Positions 16,479 through 61,989 of a stretch of DNA of 64,000 nt are shown one piece after another. A program made the position numbers and the translations under genes. Within the stretch, counting starts at the first letter, position 1. Each line of letters begins with the position of its first letter. The notes under the pieces are model-generated. The model had not been told where the DNA came from and ran no database searches. It saw only the letters and a program-made list of their open reading frames with translations. Origin of the DNA: Pomacea canaliculata (lineage: Eukaryota; Mollusca; Gastropoda; Architaenioglossa; Ampullariidae); assembly GCF_003073045.1 (NCBI RefSeq), contig NC_037595.1:4824227-4888226 (forward strand). The letters run 5' to 3'.

Positions 16479-18644
16479 GTCAACCGCAATACCCCTTCGC
16501 AGTGAACTGTGAAGAACCCAGAATATGTACCTTGGATCTGATTCCCTACTGCATCAAGGGCCGGAGAGATCCCGTGCGTGGACATTGTGAGGTACAGGAC
16601 GCCATCTGCAAGTAAGTTTTACTTTTCTCTCGTCAGCATCTTATTTTATCCCTTTTCAATAACGCATCTAACTGTTTATGGTTATTTTTATTTGAAGCTT
16701 TCTTGTAGTTTAATTTGAATGTGAGTAGAGCGAAGCTAATATGGGATGGTCCTTTGAAATGAATAATGAAACACTTTCAGCATACCTTGCAAGGTGGAGA
16801 CAGAAATAAAAAATATCCAGGATTACATAAGAAGATCGACTAGCATTACCATGAATGACTTACAGTAAAACTGTTGAGTAGGTTAGATGAGAAACTCTGT
16901 AAACTATTGTCTCGGTGGTGTTGTGGTTACACGCAGCGTCTGTCGCTTGACGTGTTTTGCATTCCAAAGGTGGGTGTATTTTTTCTTGTTTATTTATTTT
17001 TTAGGTGTTTTGCTTTGGAATTTTTTCATTCTGTAATATAATAAATTTTATGTCAAGCCTTTCATGAAAACTCATTGATTACCAAGCGAAACCACATAAT
17101 GTAGCTGCGTAAAGTCTTGTCGATAGACACTTACCTAAGGAACTCTACTATCATTCATAAGCTGATATCGAAATGTTGATATTTTCGACTCACAGAACCC
17201 TCAGAGGGCATTTAGAGCAAACCGTAGTATACGCAATTATGAAATATGTGATAAATGTAAGTATGTTTGAAGAACTGTATAAAACATACAGAGAGTAAAT
17301 GAAGACAAAGTCATTAAATGTTCACCACTTGGACAATAACAACTGTGATCTTAATTCTTGTTCAGCATTTCCTATGATGTTGACAATTAAATTATTCTTA
17401 TAACTTTTGTTAAAACATCTTTCTCAGTAGTACCAGATCCAACACACACCCAAGGTTCGAACCCAATACATTGTCAAACCATATCAATTCTTGTAACTAC
17501 TACACTACAGTGACATTGTAAAGAAGTTTTGCTCTTCTAACCTACTTAACAGTTTTACACTGTCTCGGTTGTTCTTGGCCGTAAGTTAAGTTACCTTTAC
17601 ATGTCATCAGTTTAGGACTTGAGTTATTTCGCCTGTCACCACTACCTTTATACAGCCCACATAGTGTTGAACAGTTGTCGAGGTCAGCGCCATGTCCAGG
17701 TGGCAAAGATGGAGATGATGGTTTGCACAGCGAGGACTATCAGGGTCGCTGACATCACTCTTCCGAAGGTTCCCGAAGGTTTTCCCTTCACTCAGACCTT
17801 TACGAAAAAAAAGTCAGCTACCCGGACAAGAGCAGCTGATAGTCAGTTGGTACTAGTCATGGAGTCAGTACAACTAATAAAATGCAGCTCTCTTCTCTTT
17901 CTCTCTCATGTGCTGCATGTGTTGCATTCTGATTGCAGTGGCGAGGAGCTGGACCCCAGCCACAGCTGCTTTCTGCCCTACACCGTCAGGTGCGACCGAC
18001 CGGCCGGCCAACGCCCTTGCTTTCGTGACCTCCGACCCTTCTGTGTGGTGGGACGCTCGGAGCCCGTGCGAGGTCACTGCGCCATCCAGAGGGCCATTTG
18101 TGACGAGTGAGTTTTCCTTTCCTTTACTCAAAGCGACATGTAGTGTTAGAGAAAGCTGGAAGCTAGAAACAACTTGTAGCAGTTTGTGAGAAGACCTTGT
18201 AATTATTAAAATCCAGGAAGAGATATCAGCAGCTTGAAACATCTTCTTACATCTTGTGTCCCTGAGTTACTTTTGCCGACTTACCTCCACGCAGATTTTG
18301 TTGATAAAATAAGAGCGACTTAATCAAATGTGTTTACATTTGTATATATACGTATGTACCTTGTATGCACGTATGTACGTAAATATATATTTTTTTAGAG
18401 GGATGCTTTTGTGTTTGGAGGGGAGGGAAAGGGAGAGAGCGGGAAGGAAGAGAAAGAAAAAGAAGTTAAGAAGTGGACTGAGCGAGAGACAAAGGGAAGT
18501 ACACTTTAATCAAAATCAGGAAGAACAGAAAAGTTTAGTTACTTAGGTGTTGGCATAGCAGGCTAGCGATTTTAAATCTCATCCTGGTTTCATTTTTTTC
18601 TTAGAAACTCCGTGCTTGATGTCAGCAACAGCTGCATGGAGTGA
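16479..18644 (+). CDS. K1: two-domain Kazal-like secreted inhibitor, 5'-truncated
   Basis: Exons: 16479-16611, 17939-18106, 18605-18644. Exon 2 gives Cys1-5 of domain 1 (NCEEPRICTLDLIPYC...), joined in phase 2 to an exon giving Cys6 (DPSHSC) plus Cys1-5 of domain 2 (CFRDLRPFC), and then Cys6 in the last exon (DVSNSC) and a TGA. The spacing C-x7-C-x11-C-x6-C with T-L-D-L-x-P-x between Cys2 and Cys3 matches the reactive-site segment of Kazal inhibitors (C-T-L-E-Y-R-P-L-C in ovomucoid domain 3). The putative P1 residues are Leu and Arg. AATAAA is at 18739. The signal-peptide exon is absent: intron 1 sequence begins only at about 16331, next to a hAT remnant. It is either a remnant or starts from an unseen distant exon. 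Confidence 0.75.
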
Positions 18645-18749
18645 GACAAGCCTCTCCTTTCGTTAAACATGTGCAAGTCATTTGTTTATTATCTGTACTT
18701 ACAATATTACCTTCAATAATTTTGTATTAATGATGTGCAAATAAAACTA

Positions 18750-19079
18750 TATAACTTCCCATACTTTTGTGAGTATCACTGAATGCTTGTCAAGAAGTAT
18801 GTTGATGGGGACGACTGTCGGGGTAGGTGGAAAGTGAAATAGATGACAATTCATCACAGACACCAAAACTTAGAAGCCGCAAGACAAAAATCGAATTCAC
18901 AGAAAAAAGGGGATCCAAGAATTAAATAGGGATAGAAGGACACTGCGAATGACATCGGAGTGGAAGGTTTTGCACAAACACAAGCAGAAATCTGACAGAC
19001 CGAGGACCAAAGAAGATATTAAATATCTGAGAGTGACTGACAGCTGACAATGGTCCTGAAAGCACTTTACCATCTGTAC
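18750..19079. other. 3' flank of K1, no gene
   Basis: Conserved with the flanks after K2, K3 and K4 (GACAATTCATCACAGACACC and the following GGACATTGC-type stretch), so it belongs to the duplicated unit. No open frame is supported on either strand. Confidence 0.6.
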
Positions 19080-20141: not shown

Positions 20142-21084
20142 ATGACGACTACCACACTGTCCACAGTCATGCTGCTGATGCTGTTGGTGGCACTGGCCCT
20201 GGGGAGTGTGATCGTTGGTAACAAAGCTACCTTCGCCATAGTTTGTCAAACCCTCGACATACGATGGGGAAGTCGACTTAGAAAGATGATGTTGTGTCGC
20301 TGGAGAGATTTTGCTGATTTGATTTAAAGTACTATCTTTATCCATACCTAGCCTTTAGTCGATTGTTTACAAAATGTCGCATGTGAACTGCACAGGTAGT
20401 ACATTGATAGCATGGCGACAGTTATAGTGATGTGGAAAGTCAGATGGTGCATGAGAACAGTTATACAAACACAATGTTTTCAACTTTGCAGATGAAAAGC
20501 AATACCCCTTCCGAGTAAACTGTGGATGGCCCAGAATATGTACACCGGATCTGATTCGTTACTGCATCAAGGGCCGGCTAAATCCGGTGTATGGAAGCTG
20601 TGAGATACAAGAAGCCATATGCAAGTAAGTTTCACCACAAACTCATATCTATGGACTGCTGGCAGACGATTTTTTGCAGTTAACTGCTAAAACGAGACAT
20701 TAGACGACATAGCTTCCGGTTTAGTCACATTCTTTGTTACTGCTCGCTGAGACTAACAGATCACTTCGCAAGAGGCTAAGCGTTGGTCTTGGCAGACAGA
20801 CAGCAGTCCACCTATACAGGTCCTTGACTTATCTCTCATCTACATCTGGTGTTGTGATAGTTTGTTAAATGACTTTTTTAACTGTCAAGTCAGTTATCGC
20901 CATGACGACACGTACCCGGATCAGTGTAGCTGATAGTCAGTAGGTATTAATCAGAGAATAAGTACAACTAATACATTCTGGTCTCTTTCTTTTTGTCTCT
21001 TTCTCAAATGCTGCAGGTAATGTAAGTCATCATTCTGATTGCAGTGGCGAGGAGTGGGACCCCAGCAGGAGCTGTCGGCACTGA
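20142..21084 (+). CDS. K2: single-domain Kazal-like secreted protein
   Basis: Exons: 20142-20217 (signal, MTTTTLSTVMLLMLLVALAL), 20492-20624 (Cys1-5, NCGWPRICTPDLIRYC), 21045-21084. The last exon starts like exon 3 of K1 and K3 and supplies Cys6 (EEWDPSRSC), but then reads R-H-stop. At that point the sequence jumps into what is 3' UTR in K3 (ACTGATGATATCACCTCTAA), so the rest of exon 3, intron 3 and exon 4 are deleted. The result is 82 codons encoding a signal peptide plus one complete six-Cys domain. AATAAA at 21124 follows at once. The putative P1 is Pro. The gene sits between inverted repeats of about 0.7 kb. Confidence 0.8.
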
Positions 21085-23217: not shown

Positions 23218-24931
23218 ATGACGACTACCACAATGTCCACAGTCATGCTGCTGATGCTGTTGGTGGCACTGGCCCTGGGGAGTGTGCTCCCTGGTAACAA
23301 GAGTAGAGTTCGTGGTAGATTTCAACTTGTAGATGACGAGCGATACCCCTTCCGAATATACTGTGGAGAGCCCGTAATATGTACACCGGATCTGATTCCT
23401 TACTGCATCAAGGGCCGGTACAATCCGGTGTACGGAAGCTGTGAGATACAAGAAGCCATATGCAAGTAAGTTTCACCACAAACTAATAATATCCCTGGAT
23501 TGCTGGCAGACGATTTTTTTCCAGTTTACTGCTAAAACGAGGCATTAGACGACATAGCTTCCGGTTTAATCACATTGTTACTGCTCGCAGAGACTAACAG
23601 ATCCCTTAGCAAGAAGCTAAGCGTTGGTCTTGGCAGACAGACAGCAGTCTACTGTCTACCTATACAGGTCCTTGACTTATCTCTCATCTACATCTGGTGT
23701 TTTGTTAGTTTGTTAAATGACTTTTTTTAACTGTTCATGGCTAATTTCAATCCAAGCTCTTTTGTTAGTTCAGTTCTCTAACATTTGTGATAATGAATGA
23801 GTGCATGTGCTTACAGTTGTCCTTTTCTATGTGTTTGAAAGCTCTTCTGCCTAATGTTCAAAGACCCCTAATGTGAGCAAAAGCTATTATGGTAAACAGA
23901 TGGTCATGTGAAGAGAAGAATGCAACTTTCAGCGTACCTTGCAAGGTGCTTCACGCCAAGGTGGAAACAAATAAAAAATAGTCAGGATTATACATGAGAA
24001 TCGACTAACCACACCATAAAAAACTTATCATTATCTTTATTCCCGCCGAAAGGGTGAGTCAGTTATCGCCATGACGACACGTACCCGGACCAGTGTAGCT
24101 GATAGTAAGTTGGTATTAATCAGAGAATAAGTACAACTAATAAAATTCTGGTCTCTTTCTTGCTGTCTCTTTCTCAAATGCTGCAGGTAATGTAAGTCAT
24201 CATTTTAATTGCAGTGGCGAGGACTGGGACCCCAGCAAGAGCTGCTTTCTGCCCTACCCCGTCTTTTGCGACCTACCGCATGAAGAACGCCCATGTTATC
24301 TTGACCTCTCACCCTGGTGTTTGGAGGGACGCTCAGAGCCCGTGCATGGTCACTGTGAACTCCAGGATGCCATTTGTAACGAGTGAGTTTTGCTTTCCTT
24401 TAGTCAATGCATTTGGACAAAGCTGGAAGAAGCTAGAAACAACTTGTAGCAGCTTTTACGATGACTTCGTAATTAATAAAATCCAGAAAGAGATAGCAGC
24501 AGCTTTAAAGATCTTGTTATATCTTGTGTCTATGAGTTAAATTTGTCTACCAACCAATCCGCGGATTTTGTTGATAGAATAAGAGATATTTGGCAAATGT
24601 GTCTACATGTATATGTTGTTTGGGTGGGAGGGGAGTGGAGATAGACATTACTCTGTGATAGAGAGGTTTTTCAAGCAGTGACTGCCAAGAAGATAAACGT
24701 AGACGAGAGAGATACAGAGAAAACGTTTAAGAAGCGCTGAGAGAGAGAGAGAAGTAAACTTTATCGAAATCTTACAAAAGAAGAGAAAAGTATAAAGTAT
24801 ATTTACGTAAGTGTTGGCATGTCATGATAGTGATTTTAACTAACTTTCATCCTGGTTTCATATTTTTTAGGAATGCCGTGTTTGATGTCAGCCACAGCTG
24901 CTTGACCGAAACAAGCCTCTCCGTTCGTTAA
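23218..24931 (+). CDS. K3: intact two-domain Kazal-like inhibitor with exonised intron 1
   Basis: Exons: 23218-23465, 24215-24382, 24871-24931; 158 codons. The first exon fuses signal and domain 1. Where other members have intron 1 (about 130-275 nt), K3 has only 39 nt (23294-23332). They still begin GTAACAAG and end TTGTAG but are in frame and free of stops (NKSRVRGRFQLV). Domain 1: YCGEPVICTPDLIPYC..., Cys6 in DPSKSC. Domain 2: C-x8-C-YLDLSPW-C-x11-C-ELQDAI-C, Cys6 in DVSHSC, then a tail TETSLSVR. All twelve cysteines are present. The putative P1 residues are Pro and Leu. AATAAA is at 24999. This is the best candidate in the window for a working two-domain gene. Confidence 0.85.
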
Positions 24932-26465: not shown

Positions 26466-27526
26466 ATGACGACTACCACACTGTCCACAGTCCTGCTGCT
26501 GATGCTGTTGGTGGCACTGGCCCTGGGGAGTGTGCTCCCTGGTAACAAGAGTAGAGTTCGTGGTAGATTTCAACTTGTAGATGACGAGCGATACCCCTTC
26601 CGAATATACTGTGGAGAGCCCATAATATGTACACCGGATCTGATTCCTTACTGCATCAAGGGCCGGAATAATCCGGTGTACGGAAGCTGTGAGATACAAG
26701 AAGCCATATGCAAGTAAGTTTGACCACAAACTAATATCCCTGGATTGCTGGAAGACGATTTTTTTTCCAGTTGACTGCTAAAACGAGGCATTAGACGACA
26801 TAGCTTCCGGTTTAATCACATTGTTACTGCTCGCCGAGACTAACAGATCCCTTAGCAAGAAGCTAAGCGTTGGTCTTGGCAGACAGACAGCAGTCCACCT
26901 ATACAGGTCTTTGACTTATCTCTCATCTACATCTGGTGTTTTGTTAGTTTGTTAAATGACTTTTTTTAACTGTTCATGGCTAATTTCAATCCAAGCTCTT
27001 TTGTTAGTTCAGTTCTCTAACATTTGTGATAATGGAATGAGTGCATGTGCTTACAGTTGTCCTTTTCTATGTGTTGAAAGCTCTTCTGCCTAATGTTCAA
27101 AGAACCCCTAATGTGAGTAGAGCAAAGCTATTATGGGATGGTCATGTGAACAGAAGAATGCAACACTTTCAGCGTACCTTGCAAGGTGCTTCACGCCAAG
27201 GTGGAAACAGAAATAAAAAATAGTCAGGATTATACATGAGAATCGACTAGCCACACAATAAAGGACTTAGCATTATCTTTATTCCCGCCGAAAGGGTGAG
27301 TCAGTTATCGCCATGACGACACGTACCTGGACCAGTGTAGCTGATAGTCAGTTGGTATTAATCAGAGAATAAGTACAACTAATAAAATTCTGGTCTCTTT
27401 CTTTTTGTCTCTTTCTCAAATGCTGCAGGTAATGTAAGTCATCATTCTGATTGCAGTGGCGAGGACTGGGACCCCAGCAAGAGCTGCTTTCTGCCCTACC
27501 CCGTCTTTTGCGAGCCTACCGCATGA
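26466..27526 (+). pseudogene. K4: Kazal-like gene, domain 2 frameshifted
   Basis: Exons: 26466-26713 and 27457 onward. Exons 1 and 2 are fused exactly as in K3 (39-nt remnant at 26542-26580). Domain 1 is complete, including Cys6 (DPSKSC). In exon 3, one extra G relative to K3 (GCGAGCCTACC against GCGACCTACC, near 27512) shifts the frame to a TGA at 27524-27526, leaving the tail FLPYPVFCEPTA. Without that base domain 2 would read through to the donor at 27625. Exon 4 (28113 onward) and AATAAA (28243) persist. The stop lies 99 nt before the exon junction, so decay of the message is likely. It could instead be a one-base assembly error. Confidence 0.75.
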
Positions 27527-28249
27527 AGAACGCCCATGTCATCTTGACCTCTCACCCTGGTGTTTGGAGGGACGCTCAGAGCCCGTGCATGGTCACTGTG
27601 AACTCCAGCATGCCATTTGTGAAGAGTGAGTTTTGCTTTCCTTTAGTCAATGCGGTTGGACAAAGGTGTAAGAAACTAGAAACAACTTGTAGCAGCTTTT
27701 ACGATGACTTCGTAATTAATAAAATCCAGAAAGAGATATTAGCAGCTTGAAAGACCTTGTTATATCTTGTGTTCATGAGTTAAATTTGTCTACTTACCTG
27801 CCCGGGGATTTTGTTGACAGAATAAGAAATATTCGGCAAATGTGTCTACATGTTTATGTTGTTTGGGTGGGAGGGGAGTGGAGATAACATTACTCTATGA
27901 TAGAGATAGAGGTTTTCAAGCAGTGACTGCCAAGAAGATAAAAGTAGAAGAGAGAGATACAGAGAAAACGTTTAAGAAGCGCTGAGAGAGAGAGAGAGGG
28001 AAATACACTTTATTGAAATCTTACAAAAGAAGAGAAAAATATAATTACGTAAGTGTTGGCATGTCATGATAGTGATTTTAACTAACTTTCATCCTGGTTT
28101 CATATTTTTTAGGAATGCCGTGTTTGATGTCAGCCAGAGCTGCTCGAAGCGAGACAAGCCTCTCCGTTCGTTAAGCATGTGATTTGTTTATTGTCTGTAC
28201 TGATAACATCACCTCTAATGGTGTTTGTATTAGTAAAGTGCAAATAAAA

Positions 28250-32802: not shown

Positions 32803-34188
32803 ATGACGACTACCACACTGTCCACAGTCATGCTGCTGATGCTGTTGGTGGCACTGGCCCTGGGGAGTGTGCTCCCTGGTAACAAAGCTACCTTCGCCAT
32901 AGTTTGTAGAATCTTCGACACACGATGACGAGGTCGACTTTGATGTAGCGATGATGTTGTGTCGCTGGTTACATTTCAATATTTTTTTTTATCAATGCCT
33001 ATCCTGTAGTCGATTCTCTTAAATATGTTACATGTAAGAGCAAGGAGCAGTAATGCAAACACAATGTTTTCAACTTGCAGATGAACGTCGATCAGTGAAC
33101 TGTGCACCCAACAGACCATGTACCGCGGATGCGATTCCTCACTGTATCAAGGGTTGGGACATTCCCATATTTGGAAATTGTGATTTACTGGACGCCCTAT
33201 GCAGGTAAGTTTCTCTTCTCGTTGAGATATTTTTAGTCACTTTACAATCTTTTCTCTAATTGTTCTCTGTTAGTCTCAGTTGAAGCTCCTTTGCATTCTC
33301 TAACAGTTGTGATGATGCTGATTGATGTACTTTTTTGCTAAGATGAAAAGCTCTTTTAACTAATGATAAATCAAGGTAAGAGCTGTTGGTACTGATACTT
33401 TATTTTAGGACAACTTCTCAAGCAGGCACTCAATACCACAATGTCGGACACTTTCTACATTAGTCTCTTACATCCAGACTAAACTGTGTAGATAGGTCTG
33501 TCGAAGATGTCTCAAACGATGGTCAGAGGTAAGAAATCCCACAAACAAAGATTGTAGCTGCACGGGAGAAAATGGCGTTGATATAGAAACAGCGACACCT
33601 GCACTGACTATGTGGATACAAATTAGCACATCAATGGCATCAGGTTTGTTACCCAATGTAGCCTGCACAAGGCTTCCATAGTTCCCATCCTTCTGTACGG
33701 ATAAAGGAAGCGGACCCTGGTTTCTGATACATCACCACCAGTCTCCGAGAAAAAGTTTGGGGCATTGAAAATAAAGTTCTTATGACATAGTTTTTAATTT
33801 TTGCCAGACTGCTGAGCTGGCAAGTATCCGTAATGTGAGTAGAGCAAAGCCAATCTGAAATGGTCATATTATCCAACACATGTAAGATCGTCTTATAATG
33901 TACCTTGCAAAGCTGTTCCTGGAAAGGTTAAACCAGAAACAAAAATCGGTCTGGATAACAACCCGAATGAGTGGAGCTGATAGTACGAGTCAAGAAATAA
34001 ATAAAATAAATTAAATGCTGTTATTTTTCTTTCTATCACAGACTGGTGCAGGTGTTGTAAGTCATCATTCTGATTGCAGTGGCGAGGAGGAAGACTTCAG
34101 CGGCAGCTGCATGGTCAACATCGAGCAAAGTCCTGATTACATGAGGGTCGTTGTGTCTGATTCCGAGACCTCCAACCCTGGTGTGTGA
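32803..34188 (+). CDS. K6: Kazal-like, one domain plus short tail; no 3' end
   Basis: Exons: 32803-32878, 33081-33204, 34080-34188; 102 codons. Exon 2 is three codons shorter than in K1 and gives NCAPNRPC-TADAIPH-C; the putative P1 is Ala. Exon 3 supplies Cys6 (EEDFSGSC), then leaves the domain-2 frame and ends ...SDSETSNPGV-stop. Immediately after GACCTCAGAGGTC (about 34200) the sequence becomes the K7 promoter, so the end of exon 3, intron 3, exon 4 and the poly-A signal are missing. The next AATAAA is that of K7 (36392). Confidence 0.75.
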
Positions 34189-34379: not shown

Positions 34380-35825
34380 ATGACGACTACCACACTGTCC
34401 ACAGTCATGCTGCTGATGATGTTGGTGGCACTGGCCCTGGGGAGTGTGTTCGCTGGTAACAAAGCTACCTTCGCCATAGTTTGTATTATCTTACACACAC
34501 GATGACGAGGTCGACTTAGATGTAACAAAGATGTTGTGTCACTGGTTTCATTTAATAATAAATACTGTTTTTATACATGCTTAGTCTTTAATCGATTCTC
34601 ATAAATATGTTACATCTGAAAGTAACGAGCAGTAATGATAACACAATGTTTTCAACATGCAGATGAACGTCGATCAGTGAACTGTGGACACCCCAGACCA
34701 TGTACATTGGATCTGATTCCTCACTGCATCAAGGGTTGGGACATTCCCATATTTGGAAATTGTGCCTTAGTGGAAGCCCTCTGCAAGTAAGTTTCTCTTC
34801 TCGTTGAGATATTATTTTTAGTCACTTTACAATCTTTTGTCTAGTTGTTCTCTGTTAGTCTCAGTTGAAGATCTTTTTGCGTTCTCTAACATTTGTGATG
34901 ATGCTGATTGAATGTACTTAGAGCTGATATTTTTGCTAAGATGAAAAGCTCTTTAACCTAATGATAAATCAAGGTAAGGAGTGTTAGTACTGATACTTTA
35001 TTTTAGGGTTAGCTTCTGAAGCAGGCACTCAATAGCACGATGTCGGTCCCCTTTCTACATTAGTCTCCTTGCCACCAGTCAATAGGATGTATACCACCTT
35101 GATTCAATATACTTATGGAAACTGGCTGCTTGAGTGTACATGTACACAGTCTCTATACTTGTCAAATAAATAGTCGGATGATTTGTAAATAAAGATTTGG
35201 ATATATCTTTGTTGCGGCGATATGCTCTTGGAGGAGTGATAAAAACTAAACTAAAGTTACTGTGTGCTAGTCTGACTAACAGTCAAATGTTAAAAAAAAC
35301 AATCATATTTCTTTAACACAATTTGTTCATTACACAGTTTGATAGAAGTGAGGTTTGGCCTCTTTGATTAGATATTAGATAAAGAATTGCACATGCCAAC
35401 AGTAAAAAAATTTTTAAAATAAAATTCCAAATAGAAAAAAAGAACCGGAAAGAGAAGAGACCAGCGCAATGTCCTGCGTACAGCAAAGCTAATCTGAAAT
35501 GTTCATATTAACGGACACATGTCAGATCGTCTTTTACTGTACCTTGCAAGGCTGTTCGTAGTAAAGGTTAAGAACAGAAACAAAAAAGTGTCTGGATAAC
35601 TACCCGGATGAGAGCAGCTGATAGTGCGAATCAAGAAATAAATAAAATAAATTAAATGCTATTATTTTTCTATCACTGACTGGTGAAGGTGTTGTAAGTC
35701 ATCTTTCTGATTGCAGTGGCGAGGAGGAAGACCACAGCGACAGCTGCATGGTCAACATCGACAAAAGTCCGTATTACATGAGGGTCGTTGTGTCTGATTC
35801 CGAGACCTCTGACCCTGGTGTGTGA
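34380..35825 (+). CDS. K7: Kazal-like, one domain plus 25-residue tail
   Basis: Exons: 34380-34455 (MTTTTLSTVMLLMMLVALAL), 34663-34786 (NCGHPRPC-TLDLIPH-C), 35717-35825; 102 codons. The putative P1 is Leu, the closest match to ovomucoid in the window. After Cys6 (HSDSC) the tail reads MVNIDKSPYY... to SDPGV. The domain-2 remnant continues untranslated to a still good donor (35882), and exon 4 follows at 36269 with its old stop. AATAAA is at 36392. The stop lies 57 nt before the junction. Confidence 0.8.
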
Positions 35826-44937: not shown

Positions 44938-46695
44938 CTGACGACTACCACACTGTCCACAGTCATGCTGCTGATGCTGTTGGTGGCACTGGCCCTGGGG
45001 AGTGTGCTCGCTGGTAACAAAGCTACCTTCGCCATAGTTTGTATTATCTTACACACACGATGACGAGGTCGACTTAGATTTTCATAAATATGTTACATCT
45101 AAGAGCAACGAGCATTAATGCAATAATAATGTTTTCTACGTGCAGATGAACAACGATTACCCTACCCAGTGAACTGTGAAGAACCCAGATGGTGTTACGA
45201 TGATCTGGGTCCTCACTGCATCAAGGGCCAGGTAGCTCCCGTCTTGGGACATTGTGACTTCCAGGAGGCCATCTGCAAGTAAGTTTCGCTTCTTTGTCGT
45301 CGATATATGATGTTTTGTCACTTTACAATCCTTTCTCTAATTGTTCTCTGTTAGTTTCAATTGAAGCTCTTTTTTTTGTGTCCCTTAACATTTGTGATGA
45401 TGCTGATTGGATGTCCTTCGAGTTGTTTTTTGCTAAAATGATAAGCTGTTTTACCTAATGATAAATCAAGGTAAGAGCTGTTAGTACAGATACTTTATTT
45501 TAGGATAGCTTCTGAAGCAGGCACTCAATAGCAAGATGTCGGACACTTTCTACATTAGTCTCCTTGCCACCAGTAAATAGGATGTATACCACCTTGATTC
45601 AATATACCTATGGAAACTGTCTGCTTGAGTGTACATGTACACAGTCTCTATACGTATGAAGAAGTGCTCGAAAATTTGTATATAATATTGATATAAAACT
45701 TTTTCCCCCTCTTTGTGGCGGCCAAATGCTCTCCGAGGAGTAACAAGGACTAAACTAAAGTAATTCTGTGCTAGTCTGAGTAGCAATCGAATGTAAAAAA
45801 CAATCATATTTCTTTAACACAATTTGTTCATTACACAGTTTGATAGAAGTGAGGTCTGGCTCTTTGATAAGATATTAGATAAAGAATTGCACATGCGCAC
45901 AGAACCCTTTAAAACTAATCAAAAATAGACAGCAAAAATTAAGAAAAACGGAAAGAGAAGAGACCAATACAATCTCTCTGCTTACAGCAAGTGTGAGGGG
46001 TGAGATTCCGGACTAAATTGTGTAGATAGGTCTGTCAAGGAAGATGTCTCAAGCGATGGTCAGAGTTAAGAAATCCCACAAACACAAAGATTGGAGCTGC
46101 ACAGGAGAAATTGTCTTTGATATTGAAACAGCAACACCTGCAATGACCACGTGGGTAGAAATTAGCACATCAATGGCATCAGGTTTGTTACCCAGTGTAG
46201 ACTGAACAAGGCCTCCATAGTTCCCATCCTTCTGTTTGTATAAAGAAAGCGGACCCTGGTTTCTGATAAATCACCACCGGTCTCAGAGAAAAAGATCGGG
46301 ACATTGAAAATAAAGTGCTGATGAAGTGCCAGACTGCTGAGCTGGCAAGTATCCGTAATGTGAGTAGAACAAAGCTAATCTGAAATGGTCATATTAAAGG
46401 ACACGTGTATAATGGTCTTTTAATGTACCTTGCAAAGCTGTTCATGGAAAGGTTAAAGCATAAACTAAAAAGTGTCTGAATAACTACCCGGATGAGTGCA
46501 GCTGATGGAGCTAGTCAAGAAATAAATAAAATAAATTAAATGCTGTTATTTTTCTTTCTATCTCAGACTGGTGAATGTGTTGTGAGTCATCTTTCTGATT
46601 GCAGTGGCGCGGAATGGGACCCCAGTGACAGGTGCATGGTCAACTACGGGAGGGTCGCTTTGCCTGATTCCGAGACCTCTGACCCTGGTGTGTGA
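44938..46695 (+). CDS. K12: Kazal-like, one domain plus short tail; CTG start position
   Basis: Exons: 44938-45013, 45146-45278, 46605-46695. From the ATG at 44965 the product is 90 codons. Domain 1: NCEEPRWC-YDDLGPH-C, Cys6 in DPSDRC; the putative P1 is Asp. The tail is the short MVNYGRVALP form ending SDPGV. Intron 1 is only 132 nt because its middle is missing relative to K9. The old exon-3 donor (46742) and exon 4 (47108) persist in the 3' UTR; AATAAA at 47231. Confidence 0.78.
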
Positions 46696-47239
46696 AGGGA
46701 CCTCAGAGGTCACTGTGCCATCCAGGAGGAAATTTGTGACGAGTGAGTTCTGGTTTCTTCATACAATGCGACATAAAGTATTCGAGAAAGCTAGAGGAAG
46801 CTAGACACAACTTGTAGCAGCTAGTACGATGACTAGTAATTAGTGAAATTAACAAAGACCTTTTAACATCTTGAGTCCATGATATCAGTTTACCTCGCCG
46901 TGTGTTTTGTTGATATAACGAGAGCGAATCCAATGAGTTTACATGAATGTTCTTTTCTTTTTCTGGGGGATGTTCCTCTTTCAATGTAAAAGAGAAAGAG
47001 AGAGAAAGAAAGACAGATAGACAAACGGAAGAAAATACAGATTAGTTTATTTTAGAGATATTCATATATCACGATAGTTACTTTCTTCTCTGTTTTATTT
47101 TTCCTAGAAACGCCGTGCTTGATAGAAGCAGAAGATGCTTGCCGTGAGACAAGTCTCCTCCTTCGTTGAACGTTTGCACTTCATTGTTTATTATCCTTAC
47201 TGATCACGTGACCTTTGTACTCTTTGGACTAATAAAGTG

Positions 47240-48096: not shown

Positions 48097-49878
48097 CTGA
48101 CGACTACCACACTGTCCACAGTCATGTTGCTGATGCTGTTGGTGGCACTGGCCCTGGGGAGTGTGCTCGCTGGTAACAAAGCTACCTTCGCAATAGTTTG
48201 TATTATCTTCGACACACGATGACGACTTAGATGTAAACATGATGTTGTGTTTCATTTGAATAGTCTATTTCTTAAATATTTTACATCTGAAAGTAACGAG
48301 CAGTAATGCAAACATAATGTTTTCTACGAGCAGAAGAACAACAAATCCCCTACCCAGTGAACTGTGAAGAACCCAGATGGTGTTACTATGATCTGGGACC
48401 TTACTGCATTAAGGGCCAGGACACTCCCCTGTTGGGACATTGTGCGTTCCAGGACGCGATATGCGAGTAAGTTTTGCTTCTCTGTCGTCGATATATGATG
48501 TTTTGTCACTTTACAATCATTTCTCTATTTTTTTTCTGTCACTTTCAGTTATAGCTTTTTTTGTGTCCCTTAACATTTTTCATGATGCTTATTGAAGGTA
48601 CTTAGAGGTGTTTTTTTGCTAAGGTGAAAAGCTCTTTTAAGTAATGATAAATCAAGGTAAGAACTGTTAATATGGATACTTTATTTTAGGAAAGCTTCTC
48701 AAGCAGGCACTCAATACTAAAATGTCGGCGTCTTTGTACATTAGTCTCCTTGCCACCAGTAAATAAGATGTATACCACATAGATTCAATACTTATGAAAA
48801 CTGTCTGCTTGAGTGTACATGTATATAGTCTCTACACTTATCAAATAAATAGTCAGATGATTTGTAAATAAAGATTTGGATACACCGTTGTTGTGGCCAT
48901 AATTATGCTCTTCGAGGTGTAACAAAGACTGAACTAAAGTTACTCTGTGCTAGTCAGACTGACAATCGAATGTAAAACCAATCATATTTCTTTAACACAA
49001 TTTGTTCATTACAAAGTTTGATAGAAGTGAAGTTTGGCCTCTTTGATTAGATAATAGATACAGAATTGCACGTACGCACAGAACAAACTCTTTAAAACTA
49101 ATCCCAAATAGACAGCAAAAAATAAGAGAAACCGAAAGAGAAGCGACCAATGCAATCATTATGGGTACATTAAGCGGTGAGGGGTGAAATACCTGACTAA
49201 ACTGTGTAGATAGGTCTGTCGAGGAGGATGTCTCAAATGATGGTCAGAGATAAGAAATCACACAAACACAAAGGTTGGAGCTGCAAGACAGAAATTGGTG
49301 TTGATATTGAAACAGCGACACCTGCAATGACCACGTGGGTAGCAATTAGCACATCAACGGCATCAGGTTTGTTACCCAGTGTAGACTGTACAAGGCCTCC
49401 ATAGTTCCCATCCTTCTGTACGGATAAAGAAAGCATACGCTGGTTTCTGATAAATCACCACCAGCCTTCGAGAAAAAGATCGGGACATTGAAAATAAAGT
49501 GCTGATGAAATGCCAGACTGCTGAGCTGACAAGTATCCGTAATGTGAGTAGAACAAAGCTAATAGAAATGGTCATATTAACGGACACATGTAAGATCTTC
49601 TTTTAATGTACCTTGCAAAGCTGTTGCTGGAAAGGTTAAATGAGAAACAAAAAAGTGTCTGGATAACTACCCGGATGAGTGCCGCTGATGTAAGTAGTCA
49701 AGAAATAAATAAAATAAATAAAATGCTGTTATTTTTCTTTCTATCTCTGACTGGTGCAGGTGTTGTAAATCATCTTTCTGATTGCAGTGGCGCGGAATGG
49801 GACCCCACCGGCAGCTGCAGGGTCAACTACGGGAGGGTCGCTTTTCCTCAGTCCGAGACCTCTGACCCTGGTGTGTGA
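48097..49878 (+). CDS. K13: Kazal-like, one domain plus short tail; CTG start position
   Basis: Exons: 48097-48172, 48334-48466, 49788-49878. 90 codons from the ATG at 48124. Domain 1: NCEEPRWC-YYDLGPY-C, with Cys6 in DPTGSC; the putative P1 is Tyr, which would suit chymotrypsin-like proteases. Tail RVNYGRVAFP to SDPGV. Closest relative: K12. The residual exon 3 between stop and donor (49879-49920) has lost further bases compared with K12. Exon-4 relic 50300; AATAAA 50423. Confidence 0.78.
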
Positions 49879-50429
49879 AGGGACCCCAGGGGTCGCTGTC
49901 CAGGAAACCACTTCTGACGGGTGAGTTTTACTGTGTTCATACAATGCGACTTATAGTGTGAGAGAAAGCTAGAGGAGGCTAGACACAACTTGTAGCAGCT
50001 AGTACGATGACTAGTAATTAGTGAAATTAACAAAGACCTTTTAACATCTTCAGTCCATGATATCAGTTTACCTCGCCGTGTGTTTTGATATAACGAGAGC
50101 GAATCCAATGTGTTTACATGAATGTTCTTTTCTTTTTCTGGGGGATGTTTCTCTTTCAGTGTAAAAGAATAAGAGAGAAAGAAAGACAGACAAAGTGAAG
50201 TACACTTTTAATCGAAATCTGGGAAAATACAGATTAGTTATTTTAGAGATATTCACATATCACGATAGGTGATTTTCTTCTCGGTTTTATTTTTCCTAGA
50301 AACACCGTGGTTGATAGAAGCAGAAGCTGCTTGCAGTGAGACAAGTCTCCTCCTTCTTGAAACGTTTGCACTTCATTGTTGATTATCCTTACTGACCATG
50401 TGACCTTTGTACTCTTTGGACTAATAAAG

Positions 50430-52635: not shown

Positions 52636-54426
52636 ATGACGACTACCACACTGTCCACAGTCATGCTGCTGATGCTGCTGGTGGCACTGGCCCTGGGGAG
52701 TGTGCTCTCTGGTAACAAAGGTACCTTCGCCATAGTTTGTATTATCTTACAAACACGATGACGAGGTCGACTTAGATGTAGTGATGATGCTGTGTCGCTG
52801 GTTTCATTTAATAATAAATACTATTTTTATCTAGGCCTAGCCTTTAGTCCATTCTCATAAATATGTTACATCTGAAAGTAACGAGCAGTAATGCAATCAC
52901 ATTGTTTATAACATGCAGAATACCCCTACCCAGAGGACTGTGAAAGACCGTGTGACTTGGATTGGTGGCCTATCTGCATCAAGGGCCGGGACACTCCCCT
53001 GTATGGAGATTGTGGGTACCGGGAGGCCATATGCAAGTAAGTTTCTTTTCTCTCTCGTTGATATATTATGTTTTGTCACTTTACAATCATTTCTCTAGTT
53101 TTTTTTTTGGTTAGTTTCAGTTGGAGCTCTTTTGGTAGTTCAGTTCTCTAACATTTGTGATGATTCTGATTGAATGTACTTACAGTTGTTTTTTTTGCTA
53201 AGATGAAAAGCTCTTTTACCTAATGATAAATCAAGGTAAGGAGTGCTAGTACTGATACTTTATTTTAGCAAAGCTTCTCAAGCAGGCACTCAATACCACG
53301 ATGTCGGCCCCTTACTACATTAGTCCCCTTGCCACCAGTCAATAGGATGTATACCACCTTACTTCAATATACTTATGGAAACTGTCTGCTTGAGTATGCA
53401 AGTCAGATGAATGGTACAAAAATATTTGGAATACACCTTTTTTCCCCTCTTTGTGGCGGCCATATGCTCTTGTAGGAGTATCAAGGACTCAACTAAAGTA
53501 ACTCTGTGTTAGTCTGACTAATAATCAAATGTAACAAAAACCCCAATCATATTTCTTTATCACAATTTGTTCATTACACAGTTTAATAGAAGTGAAGTTT
53601 GGCCTCTTTGATTAGATATTCGATTCATAATTGCACATGCGCACAAAACAAAAACCCTTAAATTTAATCCCAAATAGACAGCAAAAAAAAAAAAAAAAAA
53701 AAAGAGAAATGGTAAGAGAAGCGACCAATGTAATTATTATGGGTGCAGCAAGTGGTGAGGAGACAAAGTCCGGACTAAACTTTGTAGATAGGTCTGCCGA
53801 GGATGTCTCAAGCGATGGTGAGAGATAAGAAATCCACAAACACAAAGATTGGAGCTGAACGGCAGAAATATCCGTTGATATAGAAACAGCGACACCTGCA
53901 ATGACCACGTGGATTGCAATTAGCACATCAATGGATCAGGTTTGTTACCTAGTGTAGACTGTACAAGGCCTCCATAGTTCCCATCCTTCTGTACGGATAA
54001 AGAAAGTGGTCCCTGGTTTCTGATACATCACAAGTCTCATGGAAAATGATCGGAGCATTGAAAATAAAGTGCTGATGAAATGCCAGACTGCTGAGCTGCC
54101 AAGTAGTCGTAATGTGAGTAGAGCACATGTAAGATCATCTTTTACTGTACCTTGCAAGTCTGTTCATGGTAAAGTGAATACAGAAACAAAAAAGGTGCCG
54201 GGATACCTACACATGCTGATAGTATGAGTGAAGAAATAATAAAAAATATATAATTCAATTCTTTTTCTATCTCTGTCTGACTGGTGCAGATGTTGTAAGC
54301 CATCTTTCTGATTGCAGTGGCTGGGAGTTCGACCCCAGCAACAGCTGCTTGAGCAACATTGGGTCACGATGGAATCAACCGCCGATCAACTCACCTGATT
54401 CCGAGACCTCCGACCCTGGTGTGTGA
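52636..54426 (+). CDS. K14: Kazal-like, one domain, shortened Cys1-Cys2 loop
   Basis: Exons: 52636-52711 (true ATG), 52919-53036, 54318-54426; 100 codons. Exon 2 is 15 nt shorter than usual, and the Cys1-Cys2 loop has three residues instead of five: DCERPC-DLDWWPI-C. The putative P1 is Leu, followed by the invariant Asp and two Trp. Cys6 is in DPSNSC; tail LSNIGSRWNQPPINS to SDPGV. The stop lies 30 nt before the old donor (54456). Exon-4 relic 54837; AATAAA 54960. Confidence 0.78.
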
Positions 54427-54969
54427 AGTCATTGTCCAGGAGGCCACTTGTGACGAGTGAGTTAATTCCGCTTTCTTCACACAATACGACATATAGTGTT
54501 AGAGAAAGGTAGAGGAAGCTAGACACAACTTGTAGCAGCTAGTACGATGACTAGTAATTAGTGAAATTAACAAAGACCTTTTAACAGCTTCAGTCCATGA
54601 TATCAGTTTACCTCGCAGTGTGTTTTGTTGATATAACGAGAGAGACTGATTCCAATGTATTTACATGAATGTTCTTTTTTCTAGGGTATGTTTCTTTGTG
54701 TTTGTGAGAAAGAGAGAAAGACAGACAAAGGGAAGTACAATTTTATCGAAACTCAGAAAATACAGAATGGTATATTTTTTCCAGATATTGCGACATATAA
54801 CGATAGTGACTTTCTTCTCTGTTTTATTTTTCCTAGAAACGCCGTGCTTGATACAAGCAGAAGCTGCTTGCAGTAAGACAAGTCTCCTTCTTCGTGAAAC
54901 GTTTGCACTTCATTGTTTATTATCCTTACTGACCACGTGACCTTTGTACTCTTTGGACTAATAAAGTGC

Positions 54970-56819: not shown

Positions 56820-58489
56820 ATGACGACTACCACACTGTCCACAGTCATGCTGCTGATGCTGTTGGTGGCACTGGCCCTGGGGAGTGTGCTCGCTGGTAAC
56901 AAAGCTACCTTCGCCATAGTTTGTATTATCTTACACACACGATGACGAGGTCAACTTAGATGTAGATGTGATGTGTGGCTGGTTTCATTTCATAATAAAT
57001 ACTGTTTTTATCAGTGCTGAGCCTTTAGTCCATTCTCATCAATATGTTACATCTGAAAGTAACGAGCAGTAATGCAAACACATTGTTTTCTAGGTCCAGA
57101 TTTATCGAAATACCCTTGGCATTTTAACTGTGAAGAACCCAGATGGTGTTATGCTGATTTGGGTCCTCGCTGCATCAAGGGCCGGGACACTCCCGTGTAT
57201 GGACATTGTGAGTTACAGGACGCCCTATGCAAGTAAGTTTCGCTTCTTTGTCGTCGATATATTATGTTTTGTCACTTTACAATAATTGATCTAATTGTTC
57301 TTTGTTAGTTTCACTTGAGGCTCTTTTGTTAGTTCAGTTCTCGAACATTTGTGATAATGCTGATCAAATATACTGACAGTTGTCTTTATGCTCAAATAAA
57401 AGGCTCTTGTACCTAATGATAAATCAAGGTAAGGAGTGTTAGTACGGATACTTTATTTAAGGATAGTTCTCAAGTAGGCACTCAATACTAAAGTGACGGA
57501 TCCTTTCTACATTATTCTCCTTGTCACCGGTAAATTGGATGTATACCATTTTACTTCGATACCCATCAAAACTGGCTGCTTGCGAATACATGTGTACAGT
57601 CTCTACACGCATCGAATAAACAGTCGGATGAATTCTAAATAAAAATTTGGATACTTTATTTCGAGTTTGTTGCGGCCCTAAGCTCTTTGAAGAATAAGGT
57701 TTAAACCAAAGTTACTCTGTGCTAGTCTAACCATTGATTGTAAAAAACAATCATGTTTCTTTAACACAATTTGTTCATTGCACAGTTTCAAAGAAGTGAG
57801 TTTTGGCCTCTTTGATTAGATATAAGATTCTAAATTGCACCTGCGCAAATATACAGTAAAAATGCAATGTCTCTGCGTACAGCAAGTGGTGAGGAGCACA
57901 ATTCCGGACTAAACTGTGTAGATAGGTCTGTCTAGGAGGATGTCTCAAGCTATGGTCATTGTTCGACAATGTAGACTGAACAAAGCCTCCATAGTTAAAA
58001 TCCTTCTGTACGGATAAAGAAAGTGGACCCTGGTTTCTGATATATCACCACCAGCCTCCGAGAAAACGTTTGGGGCTTTCAAAATGAAGTGCTTATGAGA
58101 TAGTTTTTAATTTTTGCCAGACTGGTGAGCTGTCAAGTATCCGCAATGTGAGTAGAGCAAAGCTAATCGGAAATGATCATATTAACGGACACATGTAAGA
58201 TGGTCTTTTACTGTACCTTGCAAGGTTGTTCATGGCAAAGTGAACACAGAAACAAAAAGGTGCCAGGATACCTACCCTGGCTGATAGTGCGAGTAAGGAA
58301 AAAATAAAATAAATTAAATACTATTATTTTTTTCTATCTCTGACTGCTGCAGGTGTTGTAAGGCATCTTTCTGATTGCAGTGGCGAGGAGTGGGACCTCA
58401 CAAACAGCTGCTTGAGCAACATTGGGTCACATGTGAATTACCCGCGGATCAGCTCACCTGATTCCGAGACCTCCGACCCTGGTGTGTGA
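56820..58489 (+). CDS. K15: Kazal-like, one domain plus tail
   Basis: Exons: 56820-56895 (true ATG), 57100-57232, 58381-58489; 105 codons. Exon 2 opens DLSKYPWHFNC and gives CEEPRWC-YADLGPR-C; the putative P1 is Ala. Two acceptors lie six bases apart (TAG and CAG in TTTTCTAGGTCCAG), both in frame, so two forms differing by Gly-Pro are possible. Exon 3 gives EEWDLTNSC and the tail LSNIGSHVNYPR to SDPGV, stopping 30 nt before the old donor (58519). Exon-4 relic 58892; AATAAA 59014. Confidence 0.8.
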
Positions 58490-59029
58490 AGTCATTGTCC
58501 AGGAGGCCACTTGTGACGAGTGAGTTAATTCTGCTTTCTTCATACAATACGACATATAGTGTTAGAGAAAGCTAGAGGAAGCTAGACACAACTTGTAGAA
58601 GCTAGTACGATGACTAGTAATTAGTGAAATTAACAAAGACCTTTTAACATCTTGAGTCCATGATATCAGTTTACCTCGCCGTGTGTTTTGTTGATATAAC
58701 GAGAGCGAATCCAAAGTGTTTACATGAATGTTCTTTTTATGGGGGATGTTTCTGTGTGTGTGTGAGAGAGAGAAAGACAGGCAAAGGGAAGTACAATTTT
58801 ATCGAAATCTCAGAAAACACAGAATATTATATTTTTTCCAGATATTCACATATCACGATAGTGACTTTCTTCTCGGTTTTATTTTTCCTAGAAACGCCGT
58901 TATTGATACCAGTGATAGCTGCTTGCAGTGAGACAAGTCTCCTTCTTCGTGAAACGTTTGCACTTCATTGTTTATTATCCTTACTAACATGTGACCTTTG
59001 TACTCTTTGGACTAATAAAGTGCAGTAAA

Positions 59030-59425: not shown

Positions 59426-59429
59426 GCGA

Positions 59430-59830
59430 CATTACACGACCTGAAAATAAACAATTATTTTTTTAAGCATAGTGGCGAAAGTACTTTCAACTCAATAACA
59501 CGAAGAAACATTTGCAGGAGTTGGTCGTTTTCGCAGTGAGCTGTATATTGAGTGTGTGATGAGACAATCACTCATTCCTGGCGATGACATTTAGCACGTG
59601 ACAACGTCCACGTCACGTGTACAGACTGAAGACTGATTATTGAAGTCGCGGGTAGTTTTAAGCAATTTCAAGGTAATGACTCCTCTCTCTCATAAACAAC
59701 TGTGTGATTGCTGTCATGCCCAGCAGGATGAGGAGGAGGCTGATGTGGCAACTTTACAGCTTCTGAGTGTTGAAGTGTGATGAATTGTTATCTCTCCTTG
59801 TTGCCAATCACAGATATGTAGAGGGCCGGT
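59430..59830 (+). other. P2 promoter copy plus Cys-rich segment (R4)
   Basis: P2 (59430-59665), then a diverged Cys-rich core, LCDCCHAQQDEEEADVATLQ (59699 onward), with the loop one residue longer than in R2 and a stop soon after. No usable ATG in that frame. Confidence 0.35.
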
Positions 59831-60631
59831 AGTCCGGCTGTTAGGTGCTGATGCGATTGCAAAAAGTACCCGCCCGATTGGTATATAAGGGCAGAGAGGA
59901 GATGTCGACTCTTGTAGGGATTTCATTGTTGGTAATTATATTAGGCTAGAATATCTTAAGCATTCTCCTTGGGCATTGGTTTAAAAGGACACTTGTGTCC
60001 GCCTGATGTTTGCTGATATCTTCCAGAATGTACTTCCTCAGAGTGAGACCGAAAGGACATTGTCTCTAAAGATTCTTTACTTTATGTTTTTCTTTTTAGA
60101 ACTTTGGAAACTTTGAAACATATACAAGGACTAATATATATCTATAAAACATATAAACGCACACATACTGCCGGCATACTAAGTTAAATTATGAGAAGAA
60201 TAAAATTTTAGAAACACCGAAAGAACAAATAAAAACAATAAAATATTACAAAAAGTTAAATACACGAGCATGCAAAAAGCAGAATGAATAAACTGAAGAT
60301 GAATAAAAGAAAAGAAGTGAACAAAATAAAATCCAAAACGATAAAAGTCAGTCGTACAAAAGGGAAAGAGTAAATTTTGTTTGTGTGTATGTGTTGGGGG
60401 AATCGTCCTGGTCTTAAAAAAATAGTGTGATGACATTAAACGGCCGGAAAATGAACCATAATTTCTTTAAATACATGGTGTAAGTGCTTTCAACGCAATA
60501 ATTCGGAGGGAAATAGTTGTATTTTATCGTTTTCAAGAGTGCTATATATTTAGTCTGTGATGAGACTATCCCTCATTGCCTGCCTGACAGCGACATTGTT
60601 CACGTGATCACGTCCACGTCACGTTCACACA

Positions 60632-61989
60632 CTGACGACTACCACACTGTCCACAGTCATGCTGCTGATGCTGTTGGTGGCACTGGCCCTGGGGAGTGTG
60701 CTCGCTGGTAACAAAGCTACCTTCGCCATAGTTTGTATTATCTTACACACACGATGACGAGGTCGACTTTGATGTAACAATGATGCTGTGTCGCTGGTTT
60801 CATTTCATAATAAATACTATTTTTATCTTGGCCTAGCCTTTAGTCGATTCTCATAAATATGTTACATCTGAAAGTAACGAGCAGTAATGCAAACACATTG
60901 TTTTCTAGGTCCAGATTTATCGAAATACCCTTTGCATTTTAACTGTGAAGAACCCAGATTGTGTTTTGCTGATTTGGTTCCTCGCTGCATCAAGGGCCGG
61001 GACACTCCCGTGTATGGACATTGTGAGTTACAGGACGCCCTATGCAAGTAAGTTTCGCTTCTTTGTCTTCAATATATTATGTTTTGCTACTTTTCAATAA
61101 TTGTTCTAATTGTTCTTTGTTAGTTTTAGTTGAGGGTCTTTTGTTAGTTCAATTCTCTAACATTTGTGATGTTGCTGATTGAATGTACTTACAGTAGTTT
61201 TTTGCTAAGGTTGAAAGGTCTCCTACCATATTTCTTTAACACAATTTGTTCATTGCACAGTTTCATAGAAGTGAGTTTTGGCCTCTTTGATTAGATATAA
61301 GATTCTAAATTGCACCTGCGCACAGTACAAACACAAATAATCCCAAATAGACAGTAAAAACAGAGAAGCGACCAATGCAACGTCTCTGGGTACAGCAAGT
61401 GGTGAGGAGCTAAACTGTGTAGATAGGTCTGTCTAGGAGGATGTCACAAGCTATGGTCATTGTTGGACAATGTAGACTGAACAAGGCCTCCATAGTTCCA
61501 ATCCTTCTGCAACGGATAAAGAAAGTGGACCCTGGTTTCTGATACATCACCACCAGCCTCAGAGAAAAAGTTTGGGGCTTTCAAAATGAAGTGCTTATGA
61601 GATAGTTTTTAATTTTTGACAGACTGCTGAGCTGCCAAGTATCCGTAATGTGAGTAGAGCAAAGCTAATCTGAAATGGTCAAATTAACGGACACATGTAA
61701 GTCTTTTACTGTACCTTGCAAAGCTGTTCATGGCAAAGTGAACACAGAAACAAAAAGGTGCCAGGATACCTACCCATACTGATAGTACGAGTCAAGAAAT
61801 AATAAAATAAATTAAATGCTATTATTTTTCTTTCTATCTCTGACTGGTGCAGGTGTTGTAAGCCATCTTTCTGATTTCAGTGGCGAGGAGTGGGACCTCA
61901 CACGCAGCTGCTTGAGGAACATTGGGTCACGTGTGAATTACCCGCGGATCAACTCACCTGATTCCGAGGCCTCTGACCTTGGGGTGTGA
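60632..61989 (+). CDS. K16: Kazal-like, one domain plus tail; CTG start position
   Basis: Exons: 60632-60707, 60915-61047, 61881-61989; 96 codons from the ATG at 60659. Sister of K15, with the same DLSKYP opening and the same six-base double acceptor. CEEPRLC-FADLVPR-C; the putative P1 is Ala. Exon 3: EEWDLTRSC, tail LRNIGSRVNYPR ending SDLGV. The acceptor of exon 3 is TTTCAG instead of TTGCAG. Exon-4 relic 62417; AATAAA 62531. Confidence 0.8.

Follow-up and report, generated by a model that had tools for sequence, protein, structure and literature searches.

How can a protein scaffold be conserved throughout a family of tandem genes while one of its residues is replaced again and again? This question is raised by a cluster of genes in the golden apple snail, Pomacea canaliculata, the middle of which lies in a stretch of 64,000 nucleotides (C6:4,824,227-4,888,226; hereafter the window, to which positions without a contig name refer). 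An earlier reading of this DNA, which we call the original prediction, had described a tandem array of Kazal-like inhibitors with a hypervariable residue at the putative P1 position, the second residue after Cys2, and had proposed that a single locus makes inhibitors aimed at many proteases. We consider it rather probable that the cluster encodes canonical serine protease inhibitors of an oryctin- or Kazal-like kind, which have a diversifying first head and a more slowly changing second one. The hypervariability of Kazal contact residues has long been known; here a single snail locus, unrecognized by Pfam, presents two contrasting heads, and such a locus is a natural experiment on the evolution of bait residues.

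The cluster and its genes

The genome searched comprises 440,159,624 bases in 24 contigs, and its assembly has been described as a chromosome-level one of 440 Mb (PMC6129957; papers designated by such numbers are cited for the available portions of their text). A query with the copy K3 (copies within the window bear K numbers, those outside it O numbers) gave at least 45 matches (E<=0.001) and one with an exon of K15 at least 36 (E<=0.05), all of them on C6 between 4,815,771 and 4,929,184. There is a single cluster of about 113 kb, which continues past both edges of the window. The words "Kazal" and "protease inhibitor" are absent from the available main text of the genome paper (PMC6129957).

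A scan with the pattern C-x3..6-C-x7-C-x11-C-x6-C found 13 open stretches of the first domain in the window, all on the + strand; 40 Markov windows of equal dinucleotide make-up contained none. An exon-profile search of the window likewise gave 13 complete domain-1 exons, together with 13 full-length exons of the signal type (12 assigned to genes and one orphan), 11 full and four truncated copies of exon 3, and 11 full copies and one fragment of exon 4. The original prediction had counted eleven members plus K1, although its own list named 13. The stretches that flank the window added nine domain-1 exons and six second domains that are intact, besides four divergent domain exons, so that the whole set amounts to 22 copies of the first domain (21 of them distinct in the compared stretch) and 10 of the second head. 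The four divergent exons lie at the far end of the cluster (C6:4920004-4929184) and have Pro, Ser, Arg, and Lys at P1; one of them, with C-P-S-D-G-K-Q-F-C and V-T-G-T-C-A-L-R-R-A-L-C, comes nearer to the Kazal wording. It is possible that these exons are older members of the cluster.

The gene models were taken from the sequence, not from transcripts. Exon 1 (phase 1) encodes a predicted signal peptide, exon 2 (phase 2) the part of domain 1 from Cys1 to Cys5, exon 3 (phase 2) the Cys6 of domain 1 followed by Cys1 to Cys5 of domain 2, and exon 4 the Cys6 of domain 2 and the stop. All 13 domain-1 exons have AG before their start and GTAAGT or GTAGGT at their end, and all 13 can be spliced in frame to an exon that bears Cys6. 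A predicted signal exon is present for 12 of the 13, and in 10 of these 12 a TATATA[AT] box stands 77-102 bases upstream of the first codon position. The remaining copy is K1, for which a profile search (E<=0.01) found no signal exon upstream within the window, as had been claimed.

The spacing of the first domain, C-x5(3)-C-x7-C-x11-C-x6-C-x10-C, is common to all 13 window copies; its first five cysteines had been correctly recognized by the original prediction, and the sixth lies in the next exon. Upon this scaffold, the 22 first domains carry ten different residues at the putative P1: Pro in four, Leu, Ala, and Tyr in three each, Asp, Glu, and Gln in two each, and Met, Arg, and Asn in one each. 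The residues that had been listed copy by copy agree with the sequences. The adjacent P1' position is invariant within the window (Asp in 13 of 13) and is Asn in two of the nine copies outside it (2 of 22 overall); the statement that this residue is always Asp consequently holds for the window alone. The Pro said to occupy invariably the sixth place between Cys2 and Cys3 is found in 12 of 13 copies, K2 having Arg there (CTPDLIRYC).

Positive selection in the first domain

An excess of change at the proposed P1 had been set beforehand as one of two tests of the original prediction, and this excess was found. Among the 13 exon-2 sequences of the window (78 pairs), nonsynonymous divergence (dN) is 0.34 and synonymous divergence (dS) 0.37, and 12 of 43 codons are invariant in protein. 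The entropy of the putative P1 (2.45 bits) is the highest of the 29 noncysteine sites from Cys1 to Cys5, that of site 30 being 2.41 bits; site 2, which precedes Cys1, reaches 2.48 bits. With seven inferred amino-acid changes, the putative P1 has also changed more often than any other of these 29 sites.

Codon site models were written for the analysis and applied to the 13 window sequences and later to the 22 copies. For the 13, twice the difference in log likelihood (2dlnL) between M1a and M2a was 22.9 (P=1e-5), the comparison of M7 with M8 gave P=1e-5, and that of M8a with M8 rejected omega=1 (P=2e-6); when a tree from the intron flanks was used instead of the exon tree, P was 4e-9. The putative P1 ranked first, with a posterior of 1.000 in all three listed fits and again in four of four reduced sets. 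Other sites above 0.8 in M2a with the exon tree were 2, 12, P4, 29, and 33. The null case, with no positive selection, was simulated 60 times, and in 30 of these data sets the tree switched inside the exon. Six of the 60 exceeded the nominal 5.99, and none attained 22.9, the largest value being 12.2. The 22 copies strengthened the result (2dlnL 31.5, P=1.4e-7; M8a against M8, P=7e-8), with posteriors of 1.000 for P1 and 0.99 for P4.

The two domains behave differently. Among the eight genes with two intact domains, 93% of pairs have unlike residues at P1 in domain 1 and 43% in domain 2, while the remainder of the domain differs to nearly the same extent in both (30% and 27%); when the divergent ninth gene, O9, is added, the figures for P1 are 94% and 56%. 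Among nine intact second domains, P1 is Arg in seven and Leu in two, and the selection test gave P=0.077 without P1 among the listed sites. Beside O9 (C6:4920004) there is a tenth second domain, a divergent one that was excluded from these nine; its P1 is Pro. The second domain of O2 is out of frame.

Family and fold

To what family could such domains belong? The sequence database of solved structures offered one candidate. When a profile of 16 rows was compared with 177,635 PDB sequences, two matches were obtained, the first of which was oryctin (PDB 2KSW; E=0.022). Its score of 18.1 was reached by none of 5000 shuffles with fixed cysteines, though narrowly, the highest of these being 18.0, and hhalign gave 68% for the array against oryctin. 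Both K1 and oryctin carry E-P-[KR]-[LI]-C-T-x-D-L-[VI]-P-[HY]-C; the loop C-T-x-D-L-x-P-x-C is exact in some copies (K1, K3, K4, and K7) and altered in others. In oryctin, the P1 position is the second residue after Cys2. As a control, oryctin itself was searched: it has no Pfam match, no other PDB chain up to E=10, and no sequence match to the Kazal profile. A similarity that is weak would therefore be expected even of a true relative. The match to oryctin shifts with the rows that enter the profile, however, and the link is for this reason suggestive, not firm. Alignments A1, A2, and A4 left out the out-of-frame second domain of K4; alignment A5, which underlies the larger profile, left out K4, K16, O6, the second domains of K11, O6, and O7, and that at C6:4908624, these being near copies or having an odd cysteine.

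The features shared with Kazal domains are six cysteines with Cys2-x7-Cys3 (13 of 13 copies) and the agrin-like Cys4-x6-Cys5, which the original prediction had rightly pointed out; Cys3-x11-Cys4 departs from the Kazal pattern. The scores of the array against a classical Kazal profile were weak, the best being that of the second domain of K3, reached by four of 1000 shuffles, while that of oryctin was reached by 167 of 1000. AlphaFold models were obtained for exon 2 of K15 (predicted local distance difference test, pLDDT, 80; predicted template modeling score, pTM, 0.53) and for the domain-2 exon of K3 (pLDDT 87, pTM 0.62). Both have short strands ahead of Cys3 and ahead of Cys4, and a helix that spans Cys4-Cys5 and has its start one or two residues upstream of Cys4. 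This is the order of helix and strands in Kazal domains. A comparison by VIA-align of a single-exon model, without Cys6, with seven chains found no Kazal. When the locus was scanned with Pfam, NCBIfam, and Rfam, neither a Kazal match nor any other convincing one was obtained; the weak Pfam matches were all to other families (E>=0.016; the best was DUF3551, E=0.016). A pattern search of viral contigs yielded eight matches, none of them a relative.

Exon 2 and its surroundings

The exon and intron comparison was made with the nine copies from K6 to K16, K1-K4 being left out on account of their much more diverged intron flanks. Divergence amounts to 4% in the signal exon, 9% in intron 1, 26% in exon 2, and 24% in intron 2; the 5' flank is 21% divergent overall and only 4-7% in its last 120 bases. 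Measured in steps of 30 bases, divergence stays at roughly 2-11% from the near promoter through the signal exon to intron 1, and a sharp step sits at the acceptor of exon 2. In 28 of 36 pairs, exon 2 is more divergent than the introns taken together, and its synonymous divergence (0.32) resembles that of intron 2 (0.21-0.35), unlike that of intron 1 (0.10). Accordingly, the front cassette was either homogenized or conserved, and exon 2 kept or gained differences.

Several partial copies accompany the genes. At 31856-31996, there is an orphan exon of the signal type (MLLLLGAVLYLGSVLV), with a GC instead of a GT donor, and no match to a domain exon precedes the next gene. Copies of the 5' leader occur at 44284, 51448, 55779, 59572, and 63331, downstream of K11, K13, K14, K15, and K16, respectively; all five break off exactly where the signal sequence should start, and they are perhaps abandoned or decoy promoters. 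Truncated copies of exon 3 lie at 34056-34200, 37444-37586, and 40691-40836, and the next repeat units start at 34204, 37591, and 40841. All three ends lie only a few bases from where the next unit begins, the same point of the unit in each case, and mark it, to judge from the positions, as a recurrent recombination joint.

Two-domain and one-domain copies

All genes of the array in the window are on the + strand, and coordinates are given for each in the order signal exon, exon 2, exon 3, and exon 4. Two of them are complete two-domain genes. K3 occupies 23218..23293, 23333..23465 (P1 Pro), 24215..24382 (Cys6 and domain 2, P1 Leu), and 24871..24931 (to the stop), and K11 occupies 41051..41099, 41307..41433 (P1 Asp), 43067..43234 (Cys6 and domain 2, P1 Arg), and 43609..43648 (to the stop). 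The domain 2 of K11 has one extra Cys in its loop (CVRDCRPWC), which gives the protein an odd number of cysteines. K1 also has two domains, without the signal exon: 16479..16611 encodes Cys1 to Cys5 of domain 1 (P1 Leu), 17939..18106 the Cys6 and domain 2 (P1 Arg), and 18605..18644 the Cys6 of domain 2 and the stop. In K2 (20142..20217 and 20492..20624, P1 Pro), a remnant of exon 3 (21045..21084) has Cys6, then an early stop, and is without domain 2. The exon 3 of K4 (26466..26541; 26581..26713, P1 Pro; 27457..27625) exceeds that of K3 by one base, domain 2 is thereby out of frame, and the stop of K4 falls 99 bases before the last exon junction.

In the eight other copies, apparently one common frame shift just past Cys6 has turned domain 2 into a tail. 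K6 (32803..32878; 33081..33204, P1 Ala) has a truncated exon 3 (34080..34188, to the stop) with Cys6 and the tail, for which no donor was found. Cys6 and the tail are also encoded by the third exons of K7 (34380..34455; 34663..34786, P1 Leu; 35717..35882), K9 (37790..37838; 38046..38178, P1 Arg; 38541..38696), K12 (44965..45013; 45146..45278, P1 Asp; 46605..46742), K13 (48124..48172; 48334..48466, P1 Tyr; 49788..49920), K14 (52636..52711; 52919..53036, P1 Leu, with Cys1-x3-Cys2; 54318..54456), K15 (56820..56895; 57100..57232, P1 Ala; 58381..58519), and K16 (60659..60707; 60915..61047, P1 Ala; 61881..62036). The first ATG of K9 is replaced by CTG, and its start is at a later ATG; the stop of K16 ends at 61989, the very base at which the original prediction had ended the array. 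K12 and K13 have larger gaps at the point of the frame shift. The tail ends in DSETSDPGV in five of the eight, in DSETSNPGV in K6, in QSETSDPGV in K13, and in DSEASDLGV in K16. The ancestral gene probably had two domains, the second of which the central block would have lost through this apparently shared frame shift.

Would such transcripts be degraded? In the seven one-domain copies that have a donor, the stop lies 30-57 bases upstream of the last exon junction, and in six of them at less than 50. The limit for nonsense-mediated decay is usually 50-55 bases before the last junction, and most of the one-domain transcripts may therefore escape it.

Other features of the window

A long open frame on the - strand (39493-40269), which has no Pfam match at 0.01, resembles a piece of a hAT or zinc-finger transposase. 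A recent burst of hAT-Charlie elements was reported for this genome (PMC6129957). On the + strand, 2818-3471 encodes an integrase H2C2 zinc-binding domain of the kind found in retroelements (Pfam E=7e-15), and on the - strand an open frame at 8965-9354 contains at least three C2H2 zinc fingers (Pfam).

Evolution and possible function of the array

The explanation that we favor is the following. The genes would encode small proteins, presumably secreted in view of their predicted signal peptide, with one or two six-cysteine domains whose fold and disulfide pairing may be those of oryctin or of Kazal inhibitors. It is the Cys2-Cys3 loop that would be inserted into the active site of a protease, and the P1 residue, two positions after Cys2, would set the target. 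In domain 1, selection has repeatedly swapped P1 and some of its neighbors while the scaffold is kept, and the inhibitor would thereby track changing proteases; domain 2 would mostly retain a trypsin-type bait, usually Arg and sometimes Leu. In the central block, the loss of domain 2 by the shared frame shift would have left one-domain proteins with a short tail. The role is perhaps defense against digestive or pathogen proteases. More tentatively, and with more doubt than confidence, we propose that the locus represents a two-headed molluscan family outside the family models searched, in which a slow head with an Arg or Leu bait would be joined to a fast variable one, a homogenized promoter and signal cassette would stand before a hypervariable exon, and part of the locus would have lost the slow head through the shared frame shift.

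A number of observations weigh against the inhibitor reading. While the original interpretation was upheld as to the excess of change at P1, it was not as to Kazal membership: the profile search found no Kazal family in Pfam or NCBIfam, and the Pfam Kazal models match none of 28 domains and none of six whole proteins. Against the classical Kazal profile, hhalign gave 1.6% and 3.4%. The motif G-x-D-G-x-T-Y is absent, as had been stated, and the Asn expected at P15' by a published rule (PMC1236909) is an invariant Gly two residues before Cys4. Foldseek found no Kazal chain for either single-exon model, these being models without Cys6. With a broader profile of 28 rows without Cys6, Epigen (0.56) came before oryctin (E=0.66), and the score of oryctin was reached by seven of 5000 shuffles. 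Concerning selection, some site exceeded 0.95 in nine of the 60 null simulations, seven of these being among the 30 with a tree switch, which makes the selected sites other than P1 less secure. The eight distinct outside copies alone (O6, whose protein is identical to that of O4, being excluded) gave P=0.25 with P1 unlisted, a test of lower power that provides no replication. The contact positions published for Kazal inhibitors (list from PMC1236909; 11 of 12 used, the cysteine P3 being excluded), when pooled, were not significantly faster (P=0.092). Finally, some copies have Pro or Asp at the putative P1, residues that are poor at this position for most proteases of the chymotrypsin fold; with Pro in four and Asp in two of the 22 copies, the notion of inhibitors aimed at many proteases need not apply to every one of them.

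The alternative that survives best, though we regard it as unlikely, is that these are other secreted cysteine-rich peptides, such as antimicrobial, gamete-recognition, or ligand-binding ones, in which the loop between Cys2 and Cys3 would be a variable binding surface and no bait. Kazal family models and structures that fail to match the domain agree with it, as do the further selected sites, which lie ahead of Cys1 and in the 29-33 loop, and the pairing of a conserved signal exon with a mature exon that evolves fast is frequent in secreted peptides engaged in arms races. The cysteine spacing and the loop nevertheless resemble those of oryctin, a solved inhibitor; the fastest site is precisely P1, next to a P1' that does not vary in the window; and Arg and Leu, which are typical bait residues, are kept in the nine second domains.

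A separate inhibitor family that had arrived independently at a Kazal-like loop and cysteines, without homology to Kazal inhibitors or to oryctin, appears decidedly improbable. The weak profile similarity to classical Kazal domains would suit it, as would the dependence of the oryctin similarity on the rows used, but the loop is like that of oryctin on both sides of Cys2, Cys4-x6-Cys5 is equal in the two, and oryctin itself goes unmatched by other PDB chains (E up to 10) and by the Kazal profile. Least credible is that relaxed constraint, or gene conversion that misled the codon models, produced the P1 variation without any selection of new specificities: the stretch from the near promoter through the signal exon to intron 1 does look homogenized beside exon 2 at 26%, the synonymous divergence of exon 2 is high too (0.32 against 0.10 in intron 1), the outside copies alone are not significant, and simulated recombination raises false site calls, but omega=1 is rejected in both data sets (P=2e-6 and 7e-8), none of the 30 simulations with a mid-exon tree switch reaches the observed signal (largest 12.2), and the neighboring P1' never changes in the window.

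Comparison with known systems

If the array does encode inhibitors with a diversifying head, several animal systems offer parallels. The decapod hemocyte Kazal inhibitors comprise many secreted, highly variable domains, at least 26 of them in one crayfish (Cerenius et al. 2010, as summarized in PMC8234337); like the array they are secreted and variable, but they are crustacean and were reported as Kazal. The bivalve inhibitors of MEROPS family I84 are likewise small secreted molluscan inhibitors that arose by tandem duplication; they have twelve cysteines in 69-89 residues, a C-T-C motif, and three exons, and in a clam the site models were without positive selection, Ka/Ks (the ratio of nonsynonymous to synonymous change) >1 being cited for single genes (PMC9198434). 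The array differs from them in its cysteine pattern and in the outcome of the site models. Identity with I84 is ruled out, the twelve-cysteine C-T-C pattern being absent from the array.

P. canaliculata is an invasive pest whose eggs are already defended by another protease inhibitor. This is ovorubin, or PcOvo, which acts against digestive trypsin (PMC2997075); it belongs to the same snail, was reported as a Kunitz-type, massive perivitellin, and is, as far as the available text goes, not a product of the array locus. Given this use of ovorubin, egg defense is one candidate role for the array, with immunity and digestion as others.

Among Kazal inhibitors, P1 and other contact positions are known to be hypervariable (PMC1236909). 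The classical and the agrin/follistatin-type Kazal domains (MEROPS I1; Kazal_1 and Kazal_2) share with the array six cysteines, Cys2-x7-Cys3, the Cys4-x6-Cys5 of agrin, and C-E-L-x-x-A-x-C around Cys4-Cys5; unlike them, the array is unrecognized by Pfam, has no D-G-x-T-Y and no P15' Asn, and has x11 in place of x10.

The closest parallel is oryctin, from the beetle Oryctes rhinoceros, to which the array is more similar than to classical Kazal domains, though weakly even so. The fold of oryctin is Kazal-like, but MEROPS gives it a family of its own, I88, separate from the I1 Kazal inhibitors (PMC5673224); it inhibits chymotrypsin, subtilisin, and elastase (as quoted in PMC5691223). A literature search gave no oryctin-like snail array among the matches listed, and the papers that name oryctin together with Kazal cite, in their available text, only the beetle protein. 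Oryctin has the Cys2-x7-Cys3 and Cys4-x6-Cys5 of the array, its loop C-T-x-D-L-x-P-x-C, and its Gly in place of the classical Kazal Asn before Cys4, and it too is without G-x-D-G-x-T-Y and without a Pfam match. It differs by Cys3-x14-Cys4 as against x11, by Cys5-x13-Cys6 as against x10 in domain 1 and x12 in intact second domains, by its single domain, and by the absence of the I-K-G that is conserved in the array. Should the fold of the snail proteins prove to be oryctin-like, a type so far tied, in the available literature, to one beetle would extend to a mollusc.

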